A stretch of 64,000 bases of DNA from Desulfobacteraceae bacterium (GTDB taxonomy: Bacteria > Desulfobacterota > Desulfobacteria > Desulfobacterales > Desulfococcaceae). Positions 57,241 through 64,000 of the stretch are shown one piece after another. The position numbers and the translations under genes were made by a program. Within the stretch, counting starts at the first letter, position 1. Each line of letters starts with the position of its first letter. The stretch covers positions 1-64,000 of the forward strand of contig JAABRU010000010.1 of NCBI GenBank assembly GCA_011390755.1. The letters are read 5' to 3'. The notes under the pieces were generated by a model. That model searched no databases, had not been told where the DNA came from, and was given only the letters and a program-made list of their open reading frames with translations.

Positions 57241-57716
57241 GGCAAAACAGATAATTGTTTCTTTTTCAAACTTCATCCTGCAACAAGTCCTGGCAAGTAA
57301 GTATCTGAATTTATATCATTTCAATAAAAAATACCCAGAATGAACTGCCCGAAATCATTAACTTTCTCAGTATTGTTTTAAAATTGCGGGGATATGACCG
57401 CCGGATTTATCGGGAAGTTTTGAACGTATGTTTTTATTCCCGCAACCACTGATACTGAGGGATTCAGAAAAAAATATGTATCCCGCCCATCGCCCGGAAA
57501 TAAATTTCAGGAGGTTATGCCTTGTCCCCGCGGGATTTTTTATTTTTTCCGTATCCCTCAATTTTCAGGCCCTCCCAATATTTTATTCCAAAATTCTCTC
57601 CCTGCCTCATTTTTTCCAAAAAAAACTGGATAAAGATGTCACATTTTTTCACCTGAAGACGACTTTATCTGTACAGGGTTTACGCGGTCTGGATTTTATC
57701 CCGGAGCATCCAATCA

Positions 57717-58605
57717 GATTCCGCAGCCCGAAAAGTTTCCGGAGGAGTGCAAAAATTGTATTTTTGCACGGGGCAACAGGGGGATGCGGCGGTGCAAAAA
57801 TGCAATTTTTGCACTCCGGGACAGTCGTAAAACCGTACCCGGGGGGAAACTTTTCGATCTGCTGGGATTCTGCTGTGAAAAATATCTGGCAATACCTGAA
57901 AATTCTGCTTGACCTTTCTGAGAATTTACAGATAAAAAAGATATGCCATTCCCCTTTTACAGATTCCGCAGCCCGAAAAGTTCCCGGAGGAGTGCAAAAA
58001 TTATATTTTTGCACGGGGCAACAGGGGGATGCGGCAATGCAAAAATGCAATTTTTGCACTCCGGGACAGTCGTAAAACCGTACCCGGGGGGAAACTTTTC
58101 GATCTGCTGAGATTCTGCTGTGAAAAATATCTGGCAATGCCTGAAAATTCTGCCTGACCTTTCTGAGAATTTACAGATAAAAAAGATATGCACATTCCCC
58201 TTTTACAGATTCCGCAGCCCGAAAAGTTCCCGGAGGAGTGCAAAAATTATATTTTTGCATGGGCCAACGGAGAGCGGCGGCGGTGCAGAAATACAATTTC
58301 TGCACTCCGGGACAGCCGCAAAACCGTATCCGGGGAAAACTTTTCGATCTGCTGGGATTCTGCTGTGAAAAATATCTGGCAATACCTGAAAATTCTGCTT
58401 GACCTTTCTGAGAATTTACAGATAAAAATGATATGCCATTCCCCTTTTACAGATTCCGCAGCCCGAAAAGTTCCCGGAGGAGTGCAAAAATTATATTTTT
58501 GCATGGAGTGGACGGAAACTGCGACCGTGCAGAAATACAATTTCTGCACTCCGGGACAGCCGCAAAACCGTATCCGGGGAAAACTTTTCGATCTGCTGGG
58601 ATTCA
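57717..58605. repeat. Tandem array of ~245-bp units carrying four family A palindromes
   Basis: GATTCCGCAGCCCGAAAAG begins at 57717, 57962, 58208 and 58452, so units are 244-246 bp. Each unit has a family A palindrome plus a nearly identical linker (for example GAGAATTTACAGATAAAAA). Palindrome arms are conserved while loops differ among units. The array ends 18 bp before the CHAT gene start. It is not a CRISPR array. The 57241-57716 part of the gap shows no gene. Confidence 0.9.
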
Positions 58606-58622
58606 AACATAAGGAAACTGCC

Positions 58623-60947
58623 ATGACGTATGATTTTTCCGCATTAAAAATTCCGGAACTGACAGTGGATCAGAATGCACTGTTCGGTCCCCGCGCAAAT
58701 CCCCATTTTGTATCCGTGCTGCTGGATGAATTTGATAAAGAAAAAAGTCCTTTTTACAGCGGTCTGAAACCCTTTGAGGTTCCGGAGCAGGACAAAAAAG
58801 AGATTTACAAGGCGCTGGGGGATCATCTGCTTTCGGAATATGAAAAAAACAGACAAAATGATGAAAAAGACAGGCAAAGATGGAAACATTCGGAGCAGCG
58901 GGAAGTTGTGGAGACTGCCATCCGTTTTTATCTGCGGATTTCAGGAGAAAAAAAGTTTCCGGATCTGGAACTGCAGATGGGAAAGGCATATCTGCACCGC
59001 TCCCGCATCATCAAACCCAAAGGCTTTACCATTCCTGCCAAAAAAGAGGAAAGCCTGAAAAAAGCACGGAAATGTTTTCAGGACTCATCCTCTGCCCTTG
59101 CCGTACATTATGAAGCTGTCACAGGTCTGGAAATGGATCGCTGCGATCTGATTTCGGAAAATGAACTTTCGGAAAAAAAACTGACAGAACTTCTCCGCAA
59201 GGCTGCAAAAAATGATGTTTCCGGATATGAGGTACAGCAGAAAATCGAATATCTTCAAATCTGTGTGCGTCTGGAGGAACTGAATCGCGGAGAATTCGGG
59301 GCAAAATTGCAGGAAATATGCAAAAGACTTCCCGAAGATAAGGCAGAACTGGAAAAACTGAAGGTGATGCTGTACACGGGAATCGAAAAAATGAAAGGTA
59401 AAGATATTTCCTCTTGCCGCAATGATCTGCTGGAACGGCTGAAAAAAGCTCCCCTTTCCCATCCCCTGTGGGAAGATACCGTGCGTTTTCTGCGGCATCT
59501 GTACCGGATGCGGAAAAATGAATCCGTGGAAAGGATCAGTAGTTTCTGGCCGAAATTTGCCCTTGCACTCTGGGAATGTGCAGAAGATATTTCCCGGCAG
59601 ATTTCCTCTTTGCACCTGCGCTGGTACTGGTCCCGGCAGCGGGATTTGTATGACCTGGCATTTCTGGCAGCTTTGGAAAATAAGGATTTTCACAAAGCCG
59701 CGGAAATTGCCGATTCTGCCAAAAACCGCCCTGCCCTCACCTGGCAGGCTATGGAGAAGATGGGGGAATCCAAAGATAAAGCCGGAAAACAACTGAAAGA
59801 ATGTATTGAGCAGTATGCCATCGCCCTGTCCGGCGGTTATATTGATATGAAAAAGGGAAAAAATCCGTGCATGGCGCAGGAAACAGAAAAACCGGAAATT
59901 CCCCCAAAAACAGACGGAAACACCATTATTGTCCAGTTTTATCTGGTGCATCTCAAAGCAGATGAAAAAATGGATCATCCCAATGATAAAGAAAGGGGAT
60001 ATGCCCTGATCTGTAATGAAACCGGCTGGTCGTATAAAGAAAATAAAGAAAATTACAGATTTGATTTCAATACCATATGGCAATCCTACCTGAAATGGCA
60101 GAATGCGTATTTTGATCTGCGCGCAGGTTCCCGATGGGAATCTGCTCCGCTGCTCAAAGACCTCTGCAAAGAAATGGGAAAACAGTTCTCTTTTCTCTTT
60201 GACCTTGCGGAAGAAAACAGCAGTAAAAACCTGCTGATTATTCCCCATGATTTTCTGCATCGTGTTCCGGTGCATGGAGCTTTGCAGAGCAATCGTTTTT
60301 TGATGAACTGTTTTTCATGCACTTATATGACTGCACTTCATTGTTTCAAAACAGCAGATGAAACCATATCATTCTCTGCCAATCCACCTATTCTGATTCA
60401 GTATTTTGATGAATCAAAAGATAAGAATAAAATCGACAGAACCAGTTCTTTTATGAAAAAAGGAAAATTTGATACCGATAAAAGCATTCTTTCTGCCTGC
60501 ACTGATGATTTCTGTAAGGCATTTGAGCATGATACCTCTTTTTTTGCAATACGTTGTCATGGCGTTGCCGATACTGTAAATCCCTTTTCTTCCGGCTTGA
60601 TATTAAAAAACAGGCTGTCACTGCTGGAACTTTCCAAACAGCCTGATGAAAATTTTTCTCATAAACGGATAGTTATTGGGGCATGTGAAACGGATTTGAT
60701 TCCCCCGACAGATTCTCCCCTTGATGAACATATTTCAATTGCGTCCATACTTCTTGGCAAGGGAACAGCAGCGATCATCGGAACCATGTGGGAGGCTTTG
60801 GATGACCGGATTATTGATATGCTGCGGGATAAGAACCTGTTTGATTCATTTCAGAATATTTTAAAAAAGAAACTGAAAAATCAGGCTGATCCTGATTCCC
60901 GTTTACTGTATGATAACCTTTGTTTCAAATATTACGGCAGAAAGTAA
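58623..60947 (+). CDS. CHAT-domain protease (caspase-like) with helical N-terminus
   Basis: 774 residues from the ATG preceded by AAGGAAACTGCC; the open frame to 58188 is repeat sequence and rejected. Residues ~1-560 are mostly helical, with TPR-like stretches (EVVETAIRFYLRISGEKKFP, FHKAAEIADSAKNRPALTW). The C-terminal CHAT domain shows a LLIIPHDFLHRVPVHGAL segment, the catalytic FFAIRCHGVAD (His646) and IVIGACETD (Cys688), and the typical ILLGKGTAAIIGTMWEALDD. CHAT proteins are caspase-related proteases used in bacterial conflict and regulation. It is 12 nt upstream of a sigma-factor gene, which suggests proteolysis controls that sigma factor or its regulator. Confidence 0.88.
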   Translation: MTYDFSALKIPELTVDQNALFGPRANPHFVSVLLDEFDKEKSPFYSGLKPFEVPEQDKKEIYKALGDHLLSEYEKNRQNDEKDRQRWKHSEQREVVETAIRFYLRISGEKKFPDLELQMGKAYLHRSRIIKPKGFTIPAKKEESLKKARKCFQDSSSALAVHYEAVTGLEMDRCDLISENELSEKKLTELLRKAAKNDVSGYEVQQKIEYLQICVRLEELNRGEFGAKLQEICKRLPEDKAELEKLKVMLYTGIEKMKGKDISSCRNDLLERLKKAPLSHPLWEDTVRFLRHLYRMRKNESVERISSFWPKFALALWECAEDISRQISSLHLRWYWSRQRDLYDLAFLAALENKDFHKAAEIADSAKNRPALTWQAMEKMGESKDKAGKQLKECIEQYAIALSGGYIDMKKGKNPCMAQETEKPEIPPKTDGNTIIVQFYLVHLKADEKMDHPNDKERGYALICNETGWSYKENKENYRFDFNTIWQSYLKWQNAYFDLRAGSRWESAPLLKDLCKEMGKQFSFLFDLAEENSSKNLLIIPHDFLHRVPVHGALQSNRFLMNCFSCTYMTALHCFKTADETISFSANPPILIQYFDESKDKNKIDRTSSFMKKGKFDTDKSILSACTDDFCKAFEHDTSFFAIRCHGVADTVNPFSSGLILKNRLSLLELSKQPDENFSHKRIVIGACETDLIPPTDSPLDEHISIASILLGKGTAAIIGTMWEALDDRIIDMLRDKNLFDSFQNILKKKLKNQADPDSRLLYDNLCFKYYGRK

Positions 60948-60959
60948 AACAGGAACTCT

Positions 60960-61628
60960 ATGAAATCAAATATGATCCCCTGCATCAATTCTGACTGTTC
61001 AGGTGAATCTTCGCAGTGTGCAGACTGTCCCATCAATCAGAAAGGGCTGTGTGAAGTATTCAGGATTTTTGCCAAAAAATACCTGACTTTCAGTTCATCT
61101 GAAATTGACAGACAAATTGTTGAAAAAACTGTTGAAAGCATATTTAAACGACTTCCTTCTTTTCGGGGTCGTGAAGGATATATGGAAGGTGCTTTTTACC
61201 GTTTCTGTGAACAGGAATATTATAACAGGCGGGCAGATGTTCTGCGTTCAAAGAAAAAGAAATTGAATTTTGAGGATAAAATAATAATACGGGAAGCAAG
61301 TCTGGGGGAAGGGCAGGATATAGAAAATTCCGAATTTTCCCTTGCAGATATGGCAGATTATCCAAAATCAGACCGCAAATGGAACAGCAGATATTTCACA
61401 CAGAAAGAGGAAAATATTGCTGATGAAATTGAAGATATTCTTGAGCAGATGGCATTGGAAGAGGAACCCTGTGCAAAGGATATTCTGGTTTGGCTCGAAT
61501 ATGCCCGAAAGGGATATACGAAGAAAGAACAGGCAAAACTGAAAGGTGTATCCTATGATACTTTCCGGCAAACTCTGAGTCGTTGCTTCAGACGGTTAAA
61601 AAGTGAAATAATTGAACGGTTGACTTAG
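60960..61628 (+). CDS. ECF-like RNA polymerase sigma factor with N-terminal Cys cluster
   Basis: 222 residues. The first ~31 residues carry Cys8, 13, 20, 23 and 31 (CINSDC... CADCPINQKGLC), a possible zinc or Fe-S site not found in ordinary ECF factors. Region 2-like helices follow (FRGREGYMEGAFYRFCEQEY), and region 4-like HTH at the end (ARKGYTKKEQAKLKGVSYDTFRQTLSRCFRRLKSEI). AGGAACTCT precedes the ATG. It is surely co-transcribed with the CHAT gene. The role as a sigma factor is inferred from fold pattern. Confidence 0.75.
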   Translation: MKSNMIPCINSDCSGESSQCADCPINQKGLCEVFRIFAKKYLTFSSSEIDRQIVEKTVESIFKRLPSFRGREGYMEGAFYRFCEQEYYNRRADVLRSKKKKLNFEDKIIIREASLGEGQDIENSEFSLADMADYPKSDRKWNSRYFTQKEENIADEIEDILEQMALEEEPCAKDILVWLEYARKGYTKKEQAKLKGVSYDTFRQTLSRCFRRLKSEIIERLT

Positions 61629-61651
61629 ATATTCAGAGCTGTTTGAAAAGT

Positions 61652-61866
61652 CTTTAAAACCCTGAAAGGGTGAAATATTATAGCCCAGGGCAAAGCCCTG
61701 GGGGAACACAACCCGAAATGATTCAGCCCTGAAAGGGCGGATTAGATATTTGTTTTTTGAAATATAATGCGCCCTTTCAGGGCTTATCGTTATTATGTTG
61801 CATATTTTCCCAGGGCTTCACCCTGGGCTTTATCAATCCGCCCCTTCGGGGCTTTAAGGGTTTCTC
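61652..61866. repeat. Palindromic element inside the CHAT-sigma cluster
   Basis: Nested inverted repeats: ACCCTGAAAGGG and CCAGGGCAAAGCCCTGG on the left, CCCTTTCAGGGC, CCAGGGCTTCACCCTGG and GCCCCTTCGGGGC on the right, with ends TTTAAAACCCT and AGGGTTT. No ORF. It probably inserted between the sigma gene and the next gene. Confidence 0.8.
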
Positions 61867-61964
61867 AAATACTCTCACTAAATCATGATATTTGTTCATA
61901 TCCCTGATGAAAAATTTTTTAGGCAGTTCCATATTTTTAATCACAAATGCAGACAGGAAACTCA

Positions 61965-63209
61965 ATGACTGAAAATACATTATATCCCGGAAGACTTATC
62001 AATAATCTTACTGTCAAAGGGGAAAGGGAAGATGCGGAAGGATATATTTTACTATGGGATGATGAAAAAGGAGATACCCATCAATTTTCCATCAAAAAAG
62101 CAAACTGCGGTGGAAAAGGAAAATTGAAAAAAGATGATTTGCTGCCCGGCCCCGCGGTTGTTCTGGGTAAAATTGAAAATCGTGCTGATCATGCACCCCT
62201 GCCCTGTGAACAGGGTTCCGCAGTTGCTCTGGAAAAAAACGAAAATCTTTATGAAGTTGCGCTGAACAATTATCATGAAAATCTTCGGCATGAATTCTGT
62301 TCTCAACTTCCCGACATTCCCTGGAAAGAACTGCTGAAAACAGCATATTCCCCTGATCTGAAATCCAAAAGCAAAATCCGGAATATATCAGGAAACAAAT
62401 GGGAAGTGCGTCTGCCATCGGCAGTTATGCCGCTTACCGGAAGCCCATATCTCAACTGTATGAAGGGAAAACATTTCTTTTTTCCTGTTGATTTTATGCG
62501 GACACGGAGAGGCGTGTACAGACCCCAGGCAGATGATGTGCAATGGCCACTCAGATTTATTTGTGATTTTTCTATAAATCAACGTCTTGGTAAAATGACT
62601 AAAAAAGTAAAAATTCTTCTGCATGGCACAATTGATCCGCTTAAACTGCATTTCAATCTGTGGAAACATTTGGCAGAGGATAAACGGGTTGACAGTGAAC
62701 CGGGATCACGGCGGTACTGGAATCAGTGGAGCGGAGTTCCTGTACCTGAAGATATGGTGAAATGTTTTACAGATAAATGCGTTCCCTATATAAATGCAGA
62801 CTCAAAAAAAACACGTTGCGATGCGGCATGTGAGAAAGATAATTTTTCAAAAGTAAACAAAGAGTTGCTTAACTTTAACAATATATATCTCTCCAAAGCA
62901 GTCACATTTTTCAGAAACCATACGACCTTAGAAGGAGGAAGTAATTGTTTTAAAATTATTAAAGAAGGTAATGATCCGGATATGGTAAATTTTTATATCA
63001 ACTGTCAGGAAATCAGAAAAAAGGAAAATATGTTTGTTCGTCTGCATTTACGGGGGCATTCTTTCAACTGGCATGAAGCAGAACCATTGATACACCTTCA
63101 TATCCTTACTTTTTATTTGGGGCCGGATAAAAAAAAGAAACAATCGGAACGATATTCAAATAACAAAACGATATACGGAAAGATACTGAATATAAAGGAA
63201 GTGAAATAA
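61965..63209 (+). CDS. Unrecognised protein in CHAT-sigma cluster
   Basis: 414 residues from the ATG after ACAGGAAACTCA, nearly the same leader as the sigma gene (ACAGGAACTCT). Residues ~10-70 look like a small beta domain (EGYILLWDDEKGDTHQFSIK, LLPGPAVVLGKIENRAD), possibly OB-like. The rest has several Cys (CFTDKC, CDAACEKD) and a C-terminal HxH-rich stretch (LRGHSFNWHEAEPLIHLHIL). Acidic and basic residues are mixed and no signal peptide is seen. I do not recognise the family. A regulatory partner or protease substrate is possible by context only. Confidence 0.6.
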   Translation: MTENTLYPGRLINNLTVKGEREDAEGYILLWDDEKGDTHQFSIKKANCGGKGKLKKDDLLPGPAVVLGKIENRADHAPLPCEQGSAVALEKNENLYEVALNNYHENLRHEFCSQLPDIPWKELLKTAYSPDLKSKSKIRNISGNKWEVRLPSAVMPLTGSPYLNCMKGKHFFFPVDFMRTRRGVYRPQADDVQWPLRFICDFSINQRLGKMTKKVKILLHGTIDPLKLHFNLWKHLAEDKRVDSEPGSRRYWNQWSGVPVPEDMVKCFTDKCVPYINADSKKTRCDAACEKDNFSKVNKELLNFNNIYLSKAVTFFRNHTTLEGGSNCFKIIKEGNDPDMVNFYINCQEIRKKENMFVRLHLRGHSFNWHEAEPLIHLHILTFYLGPDKKKKQSERYSNNKTIYGKILNIKEVK

Positions 63210-63210
63210 A

Positions 63211-64000
63211 GTGACTACTTATTATAACAATGAGTTTATGTATAACGCAGGTACTGATCTGCTTTTGAATTTGGCAGACTGCATTCTGGAAAAACCGGAG
63301 ATGGAATCTGAAAAAGAAAGATTCTCCGGTTTCCTTTCCACATGGGAGATATCCGATCTGCTTAAAGAAGCAGAGGAAGGGCTTCCCATGCTGCTGAAAA
63401 ATGCGGAACAGGCACGGCATTTCTTTATTCAGAATCCTGTTCTTTCCGTAATCAGTGGTGATGAACAGTGGCATCAGGCAAACCGCGCCCTGAATGCCTT
63501 TGATCGTGTATTGTTTATATGGGTAGCTGCTTCCCATGTGCTGAAAACCGAATCAGCATCTTTTGTCAATTCTGCGGAAAAAGCATATCAGCAACTGACA
63601 GAATGGCTTGTCAGGGGCAATGATTTTTCTTTGCTCCGTCTTGTCCCAATGAACAAATGGCGGAATGAACGGGTGAAAAGAATTCCGGAAGAAAACCGTT
63701 TTCTGTATCCCTGGTACACCGGATTGTCGGAAATATCGGATGAAACGATTGATCTGATTTCAGAAAACTGGTCTCTGATTGTTTCGGACGGATATAACGC
63801 GCTTTCCTTTGTTCCGGAAGAAAACCGTGCCATTGTATGGGATTATCTCAACCGGGACAATGGACTGAAGTCCGCGCTGGATATGCAGAACCGCTTTGAA
63901 AAAGCAATTATCAAAGCACTGGATAAAAGCTGTGCGCTCCGGCTGCTTCATCTTTCTTCGATTCATACCGCAACACGCGTTGCACCCGAAAACTATTCTG
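63211..64000 (+). CDS. Unrecognised protein, 3' end outside the window
   Basis: An open frame runs from the GTG at 63211, one base after the preceding stop with GGAAG upstream, to the window edge (263 codons). An ATG at 63238 (MYNAGTDLLLNL) is an alternative start. The sequence is helical (for example WEISDLLKEAEEGLPMLL, NRALNAFDRVLFIWVAASHV) with no signal peptide and no motif I recognise. Spacing indicates translational coupling to the preceding gene, so the cluster has at least four genes. Confidence 0.65.
   Translation, partial: MTTYYNNEFMYNAGTDLLLNLADCILEKPEMESEKERFSGFLSTWEISDLLKEAEEGLPMLLKNAEQARHFFIQNPVLSVISGDEQWHQANRALNAFDRVLFIWVAASHVLKTESASFVNSAEKAYQQLTEWLVRGNDFSLLRLVPMNKWRNERVKRIPEENRFLYPWYTGLSEISDETIDLISENWSLIVSDGYNALSFVPEENRAIVWDYLNRDNGLKSALDMQNRFEKAIIKALDKSCALRLLHLSSIHTATRVAPENYS

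Follow-up and report, generated by a model that had tools for sequence, protein, structure and literature searches.

The 64,000-nucleotide stretch of DNA analysed here (the window; positions 1-64,000 of contig C294 in the 6.9-Mb, 379-contig draft genome of a Desulfobacteraceae bacterium) ends inside an operon that almost certainly encodes a type III-E CRISPR (clustered regularly interspaced short palindromic repeats) system, or Craspase, which is a further member of a known system. Direct observations cover the identities and order of the genes, the conservation of catalytic residues, and the presence of a matching repeat array with cas1 elsewhere in the genome. Five intact open reading frames (ORFs) were read on C294 in the order csx29, CASP-sigma, csx31, csx30 and cas7-11 (Table 1), with the sigma gene starting 12 nt downstream of csx29 and the stop of csx30 overlapping the start of cas7-11 by 4 nt (ATGA). 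A preliminary description of the window had placed the first four frames and the 12-nt spacing correctly, but had presented them as a CHAT protease-sigma factor module 'without CRISPR'. This was an artefact of the window edge, since cas7-11 begins about 820 bp beyond the last window position, which leaves this end without a Cas effector gene. C294 itself ends at 71,264 bp, and reading past position 64,000 both completed csx30 and found cas7-11 as the next gene.

The predicted proteins were compared with the dedicated NCBIfam models for type III-E systems using the curated cut-offs (NF041225, 700 bits; NF041237, 300 bits; NF041234, 125 bits; NF041236, 100 bits; NF041235, 150 bits). The product of the fifth gene was identified as Cas7-11 (gRAMP), with a full-length score of 1638 bits for NF041225 and 1465 bits (E = 0) against PDB 7zol_B. 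The CHAT protein was identified as Csx29 (NF041237, 488.5 bits; phmmer to the Desulfonema magnum TPR-CHAT protein, PDB 7zoq_A, 4e-141; Pfam CHAT, 28.8 bits with a cut-off of 24), and the fourth protein as Csx30 (NF041234, 216 bits, matching the N-terminal two thirds; phmmer to Csx30 in PDB 8eey_E, 4e-12). Because csx29, csx30 and cas7-11 exceed the dedicated cut-offs, a chance match is excluded. For the third protein the match was Csx31 (NF041235, 132 bits, E = 2e-38), and for the second it was the sigma factor of type III-E systems (NF041236, 75 bits, E = 7e-21; TIGR02937, 3.9e-7), while PADLOC returned no match. The comparison with type III-E systems made in the preliminary description was thus apt, the locus itself being type III-E, and of its two candidates for the substrate or anti-sigma factor, the fourth protein is indeed Csx30, whereas the third is Csx31.

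His646 and Cys688 of Csx29, correctly picked out beforehand, are invariant in all 11 aligned Csx29 proteins and align with H615 and C658 of Desulfonema ishimotonii, the proven catalytic dyad of Csx29 (PMC10028731); Cys688 also aligns with Cys728 of D. magnum (PMC9935389). In Cas7-11, H50 aligns with D. ishimotonii H43, which acts in CRISPR RNA (crRNA) processing (PMC9629832), and D689 aligns with D. ishimotonii D654 and likewise, by a reckoned construct offset, with D. magnum Asp682, which is implicated in nuclease activity (PMC9935389).

The sigma protein of the window by itself reached neither of the Pfam sigma models (regions 2 and 4), but Sigma70_r2 was found in four and region 4 in one of six orthologues. 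In the AlphaFold2 model built with the six orthologues (mean pLDDT of 67), residues 31-105 and 144-221 form helical domains, and the top-ranked Foldseek and VIA matches of this model were sigma factors across both sigma2 and sigma4, including extracytoplasmic function (ECF) sigma factors bound to anti-sigma factors. By fold, both regions are thus present, and the model, with middling fold scores, supports rather than proves that the protein is an ECF (group IV) sigma factor with regions 2 and 4 only. The Cys cluster described earlier is real, C13, C20 and C23 being invariant in the six orthologues. Alignments of Csx31 also revealed invariant His and Cys residues; its AlphaFold2 model was of too low quality for a fold to be assigned (mean pLDDT 51), Foldseek gave no match below E 0.15, and nothing convincing was found in Pfam.

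CRISPR arrays were sought by repeat-pattern searches using the 3' end that is conserved among type III-E repeats. Contig C280 carries an 18-repeat array (repeat GTTGGGAAAACCGGCCTTTTTTGATGTCACGGAAC, spacers of 32-35 nt) downstream of cas1 on the same strand, the only array of this repeat type found in the assembly. The 3' end of the repeat is identical to that of the D. ishimotonii repeat (GTTGGAAAGCCGGTTTTCTTTGATGTCACGGAAC), and the arrangement of cas1 and array is also equal. Spacers had nothing beyond short chance-level matches among 50,697 phage records. Two more CRISPR arrays of other repeat types, each with cas1, were seen in the same genome on contigs C32 and C10 (L010, L013). Besides the two Acido-Lenti-1 RNA motifs listed in Table 1, others adjoin the C280 array and occur near the D. 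magnum locus.

Among 389 genomes of the order, 12 had strong Cas7-11 matches, and Csx31 was matched, strongly or partially, in 8 of these 12 and elsewhere by two weak matches only. The CHAT-sigma pair is conserved outside the present genome, in that the order csx29-sigma-csx31 is also found in D. magnum (with csx30 and cas7-11 next) and in the metagenome-assembled genomes S23.Bin075 and S24.Bin080. D. ishimotonii, HSG2 and GMC2 have sigma-csx31-csx30-csx29-cas7-11, or an order much like this. When named genomes were searched, a single-sequence query gave nothing and an alignment query gave 16 loci; no loci were obtained from viral contigs. S23.Bin075 and S24.Bin080 (L088, L089) belong to different families but have identical sigma proteins and near-identical csx29-sigma-csx31 stretches, which indicates either a recent transfer or a binning error. 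In Desulfobacterales HSG2 (L066:671-5942), two Csx30 paralogues flank sigma and csx31 within one operon, and one protease may therefore have two substrates.

Among the closest counterparts is the Craspase of D. magnum (PDB 7ZOL/7ZOQ; PMC9935389), which has the same five-gene order (Cas7-11 about 44-50% and Csx29 39% identical), although it has another CRISPR repeat and its arrays are on the contig of the operon, just upstream. D. ishimotonii DiCASP (PMC10028731) shares the host family, the five gene families, the 3' end of the repeat and a cas1 followed by an array, but differs in gene order, in having cas1 inside the locus and in its Cas7-11, which is about 40% identical. The Craspases of 'Candidatus Scalindua brodae' and Jettenia caeni (PMC9729208, PMC11106740) also combine gRAMP with TPR-CHAT and cleave Csx30 when triggered by target RNA, and the former also has RpoE and Csx31; however, their hosts are planctomycetes, their sequences are more distant and their Csx30 cleavage sites are different.

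Based on the experiments with these orthologues, Cas7-11 of the present operon would process crRNAs and, when loaded with crRNA, carry Csx29, and pairing with a foreign (non-self) target RNA would turn on the His646/Cys688 protease. Csx29 would then cut the anti-sigma factor Csx30 close to the C-terminus, and the sigma factor, no longer inhibited, would transcribe its target promoters, which in D. ishimotonii include that of cas1. Csx30 cleavage activated by target RNA has been demonstrated biochemically in three orthologous systems (PMC10028731, PMC9729208, PMC11106740), and we infer the activation, cleavage and sigma-release steps at this locus by analogy. The DegS-RseA-sigmaE pathway (cited in PMC10028731) similarly releases an ECF sigma factor through destruction of the anti-sigma factor by a protease, but its trigger is envelope stress, not RNA-guided recognition, and its protease and anti-sigma factor are unrelated.

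Several observations weigh against reading the operon as a Craspase served by the C280 array. The sigma factor and Csx31 score just under the curated cut-offs, and automatic annotation may therefore miss both. The C-terminal third of this Csx30 has no match to the Csx30 profile; a match limited to the N-terminal two thirds is consistent with the published finding that Csx30 cleavage sites are not conserved (PMC11106740). No array or cas1 is present in the 1.3 kb between cas7-11 and the end of C294, the array sits on the separate contig C280, and no overlap was found between the ends of the two contigs, so that any linkage of the array to the operon is putative. As judged from the alignment, one target-RNA cleavage site may be altered, because the position of D. 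ishimotonii D429, which we take to be a target-RNA cleavage residue, is Ser461 in this Cas7-11; Ser or Asn is found here in most relatives, including D. magnum. Finally, a second, divergent csx29-cas7-11 pair is present on contig C375 (L060:1-7015), which starts inside csx29, and this Craspase, whose Cas7-11 is 34-37% identical to the first, could be the user of the C280 array.

The last point leads to the alternative that survives best, which we regard as having a minor but real chance: the C280 array and cas1 would mainly serve the C375 Craspase, and the window operon would use another array lost in assembly gaps. The presence of two csx29-cas7-11 pairs in the genome and the different repeat of D. 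magnum, which among complete relatives sharing this gene order is the closest, are in its favour. However, the assembly shows one array of this repeat type, which could be used by either effector, and this one array could serve both because the 3' ends of the repeats are alike across the type III-E loci compared. It is improbable that the operon is a true type III-E locus which has ceased to function, being without an array of its own and altered at one nuclease site. The array-free stretch of C294 after cas7-11, Ser461, and the related GMC6 locus (G166) with its truncated csx31 and a stop in cas7-11 would fit such a loss, but the five frames are intact, the protease dyad, H50 and D689 are retained, relatives commonly have Ser or Asn at the D429 position, and a regular array of matching repeat type exists on C280; CRISPR arrays can generally act in trans, which also counts against a non-working locus. 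As for a CRISPR-independent signalling module whose CHAT protease senses something else, the lack of a Cas effector gene at this window end and a CRISPR-free CHAT-sigma neighbourhood elsewhere in the genome (C282) could be cited for it, but we give it almost no credence, as the intact 1717-aa cas7-11 frame overlapping csx30 and the match of four of four window genes to type III-E families already refute it here. The arrangement imagined in the preliminary description is found in this genome on C282, not at this locus.

If the operon is taken as a Craspase, comparison with variant loci bears on how its substrate is built, as some Cas7-11 loci are without csx30 and csx31. In 'Candidatus Brocadiaceae' S40-1 (L114:8189-9996, JANLHY010000575.1), the order runs from csx29 through a different sigma factor, of the sigma-70 family (TIGR02937, 1e-12), and a 324-aa protein to cas7-11, after which comes a repeat array. 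At its N-terminus the 324-aa protein carries a zinc-finger anti-sigma domain (Pfam zf-HC2, 2e-14), whereas residues 138-318 align with the Csx30 profile at positions 376-559 of 560 only (E = 1.5e-27), the region containing the D. ishimotonii cleavage site, with a whole-protein score of 96.7 bits, under the cut-off of 125. At the level of sequence comparison, this zf-HC2/Csx30-C chimera argues strongly that the part of Csx30 acting as anti-sigma factor can be separated from the part recognised by the protease. We did not find the chimera described in a limited literature search, the result of which proves little.

Other variants were found in Desulfobacterales. The Craspase of Desulfococcaceae HSG8 (L075:7561-19504, G074:C50) is without csx30 and csx31, its cas7-11 is split into two ORFs, and it is adjoined by an ECF sigma factor, a 213-aa protein and a zinc-finger protein, the last with another C-terminal tail that is common to the ORF upstream of csx29 in L073. 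The CRISPR-free locus on C282 of our own genome (L104:7661-16162) encodes an ECF sigma factor, a 230-aa protein, a zinc-finger putative anti-sigma factor with a DUF4384-like C-terminus and a 1503-aa TPR-CHAT protein, so that the same kind of trio (sigma factor, small protein and zinc-finger protein) stands beside both the HSG8 Craspase and a CRISPR-free TPR-CHAT protein. The tail of the window Csx30 has a weaker similarity to a 631-aa protein encoded in a variant locus of GMC2 (E about 0.001, against 0.9 for the best null). The tails of the HSG8 and ER2 proteins, considered as Csx30-like, are mutually alike (about 1e-11 to 1e-12), but no relation to Csx30 was shown and they were rejected as such. 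When all tails were compared by profile, the results stayed close to background save for the pairs named here.

We lean slightly towards the view that in Craspases the anti-sigma part is exchangeable and sits on a conserved C-terminal domain that is the protease substrate, as in Csx30, the Brocadiaceae zf-HC2 protein beside its unrelated sigma factor, and possibly other proteins of the Desulfobacterales variant loci without csx30 and csx31. If this is true, the RNA-guided protease would be a general-purpose switch, connected on repeated occasions to different sigma factors, some of them from CRISPR-free CHAT-sigma neighbourhoods like that on C282. The comparison provides an evolutionary argument that the N-terminal part of Csx30, replaceable by a zinc-finger domain, would be the anti-sigma factor and the C-terminal part would be recognised and cut by the protease. 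This division of labour bears on the question, raised previously (PMC10028731), of how a C-terminal cut in Csx30 frees the sigma factor bound to its N-terminal part, RpoE being still bound to Csx30-N after cleavage (PMC9729208). With a divergent Craspase and a Csx30 C-terminus outside the profile in one genome with two Craspases, cleavage specificity and cross-talk would be testable there; what is of interest is less the window genes themselves than the modular reading of the substrate and the presence of two Craspases in one genome.

Table 1. Features of the type III-E operon and its flanks (window positions, or C294 positions where so marked)
Feature	Position	Strand	Evidence
Tandem repeat, 3.6 copies of a 245-bp unit, directly upstream of csx29	57715..58604		TRF
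csx29 (TPR-CHAT protease), 774 aa	58623..60947	+	NF041237, PDB 7zoq_A, His/Cys alignment
CASP-sigma (RpoE-like sigma factor), 222 aa, N-terminal Cys cluster	60960..61628	+	NF041236, TIGR02937, AlphaFold2 fold
Intergenic gap with two Acido-Lenti-1 RNA motifs in opposite orientation	61658-61702; 61809-61853	-; +	Rfam RF01687, 49.6 and 40.9 bits
csx31, 414 aa (420 aa if the start is at 61947)	61965..63209	+	NF041235
csx30 (anti-sigma factor, protease substrate), 263+ aa inside the window	63211..64000	+	NF041234, PDB 8eey_E
csx30, entire gene, 537 aa	C294:63211-64824	+	Reading past the window edge
cas7-11 (gRAMP), about 1717 aa, outside the window	C294:64821-69974	+	NF041225, PDB 7zol_B

The tandem repeats upstream of csx29 were considered as a CRISPR array and rejected; they are dispersed palindromic repeats, and by pattern count the 23-bp palindrome of the 245-bp unit has about 130 copies genome-wide. 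Directly 3' of cas7-11 (C294:70029-70512; L009:12029-12512), two small ORFs resemble, by eye only, a toxin-antitoxin pair of the RelBE/ParDE type.

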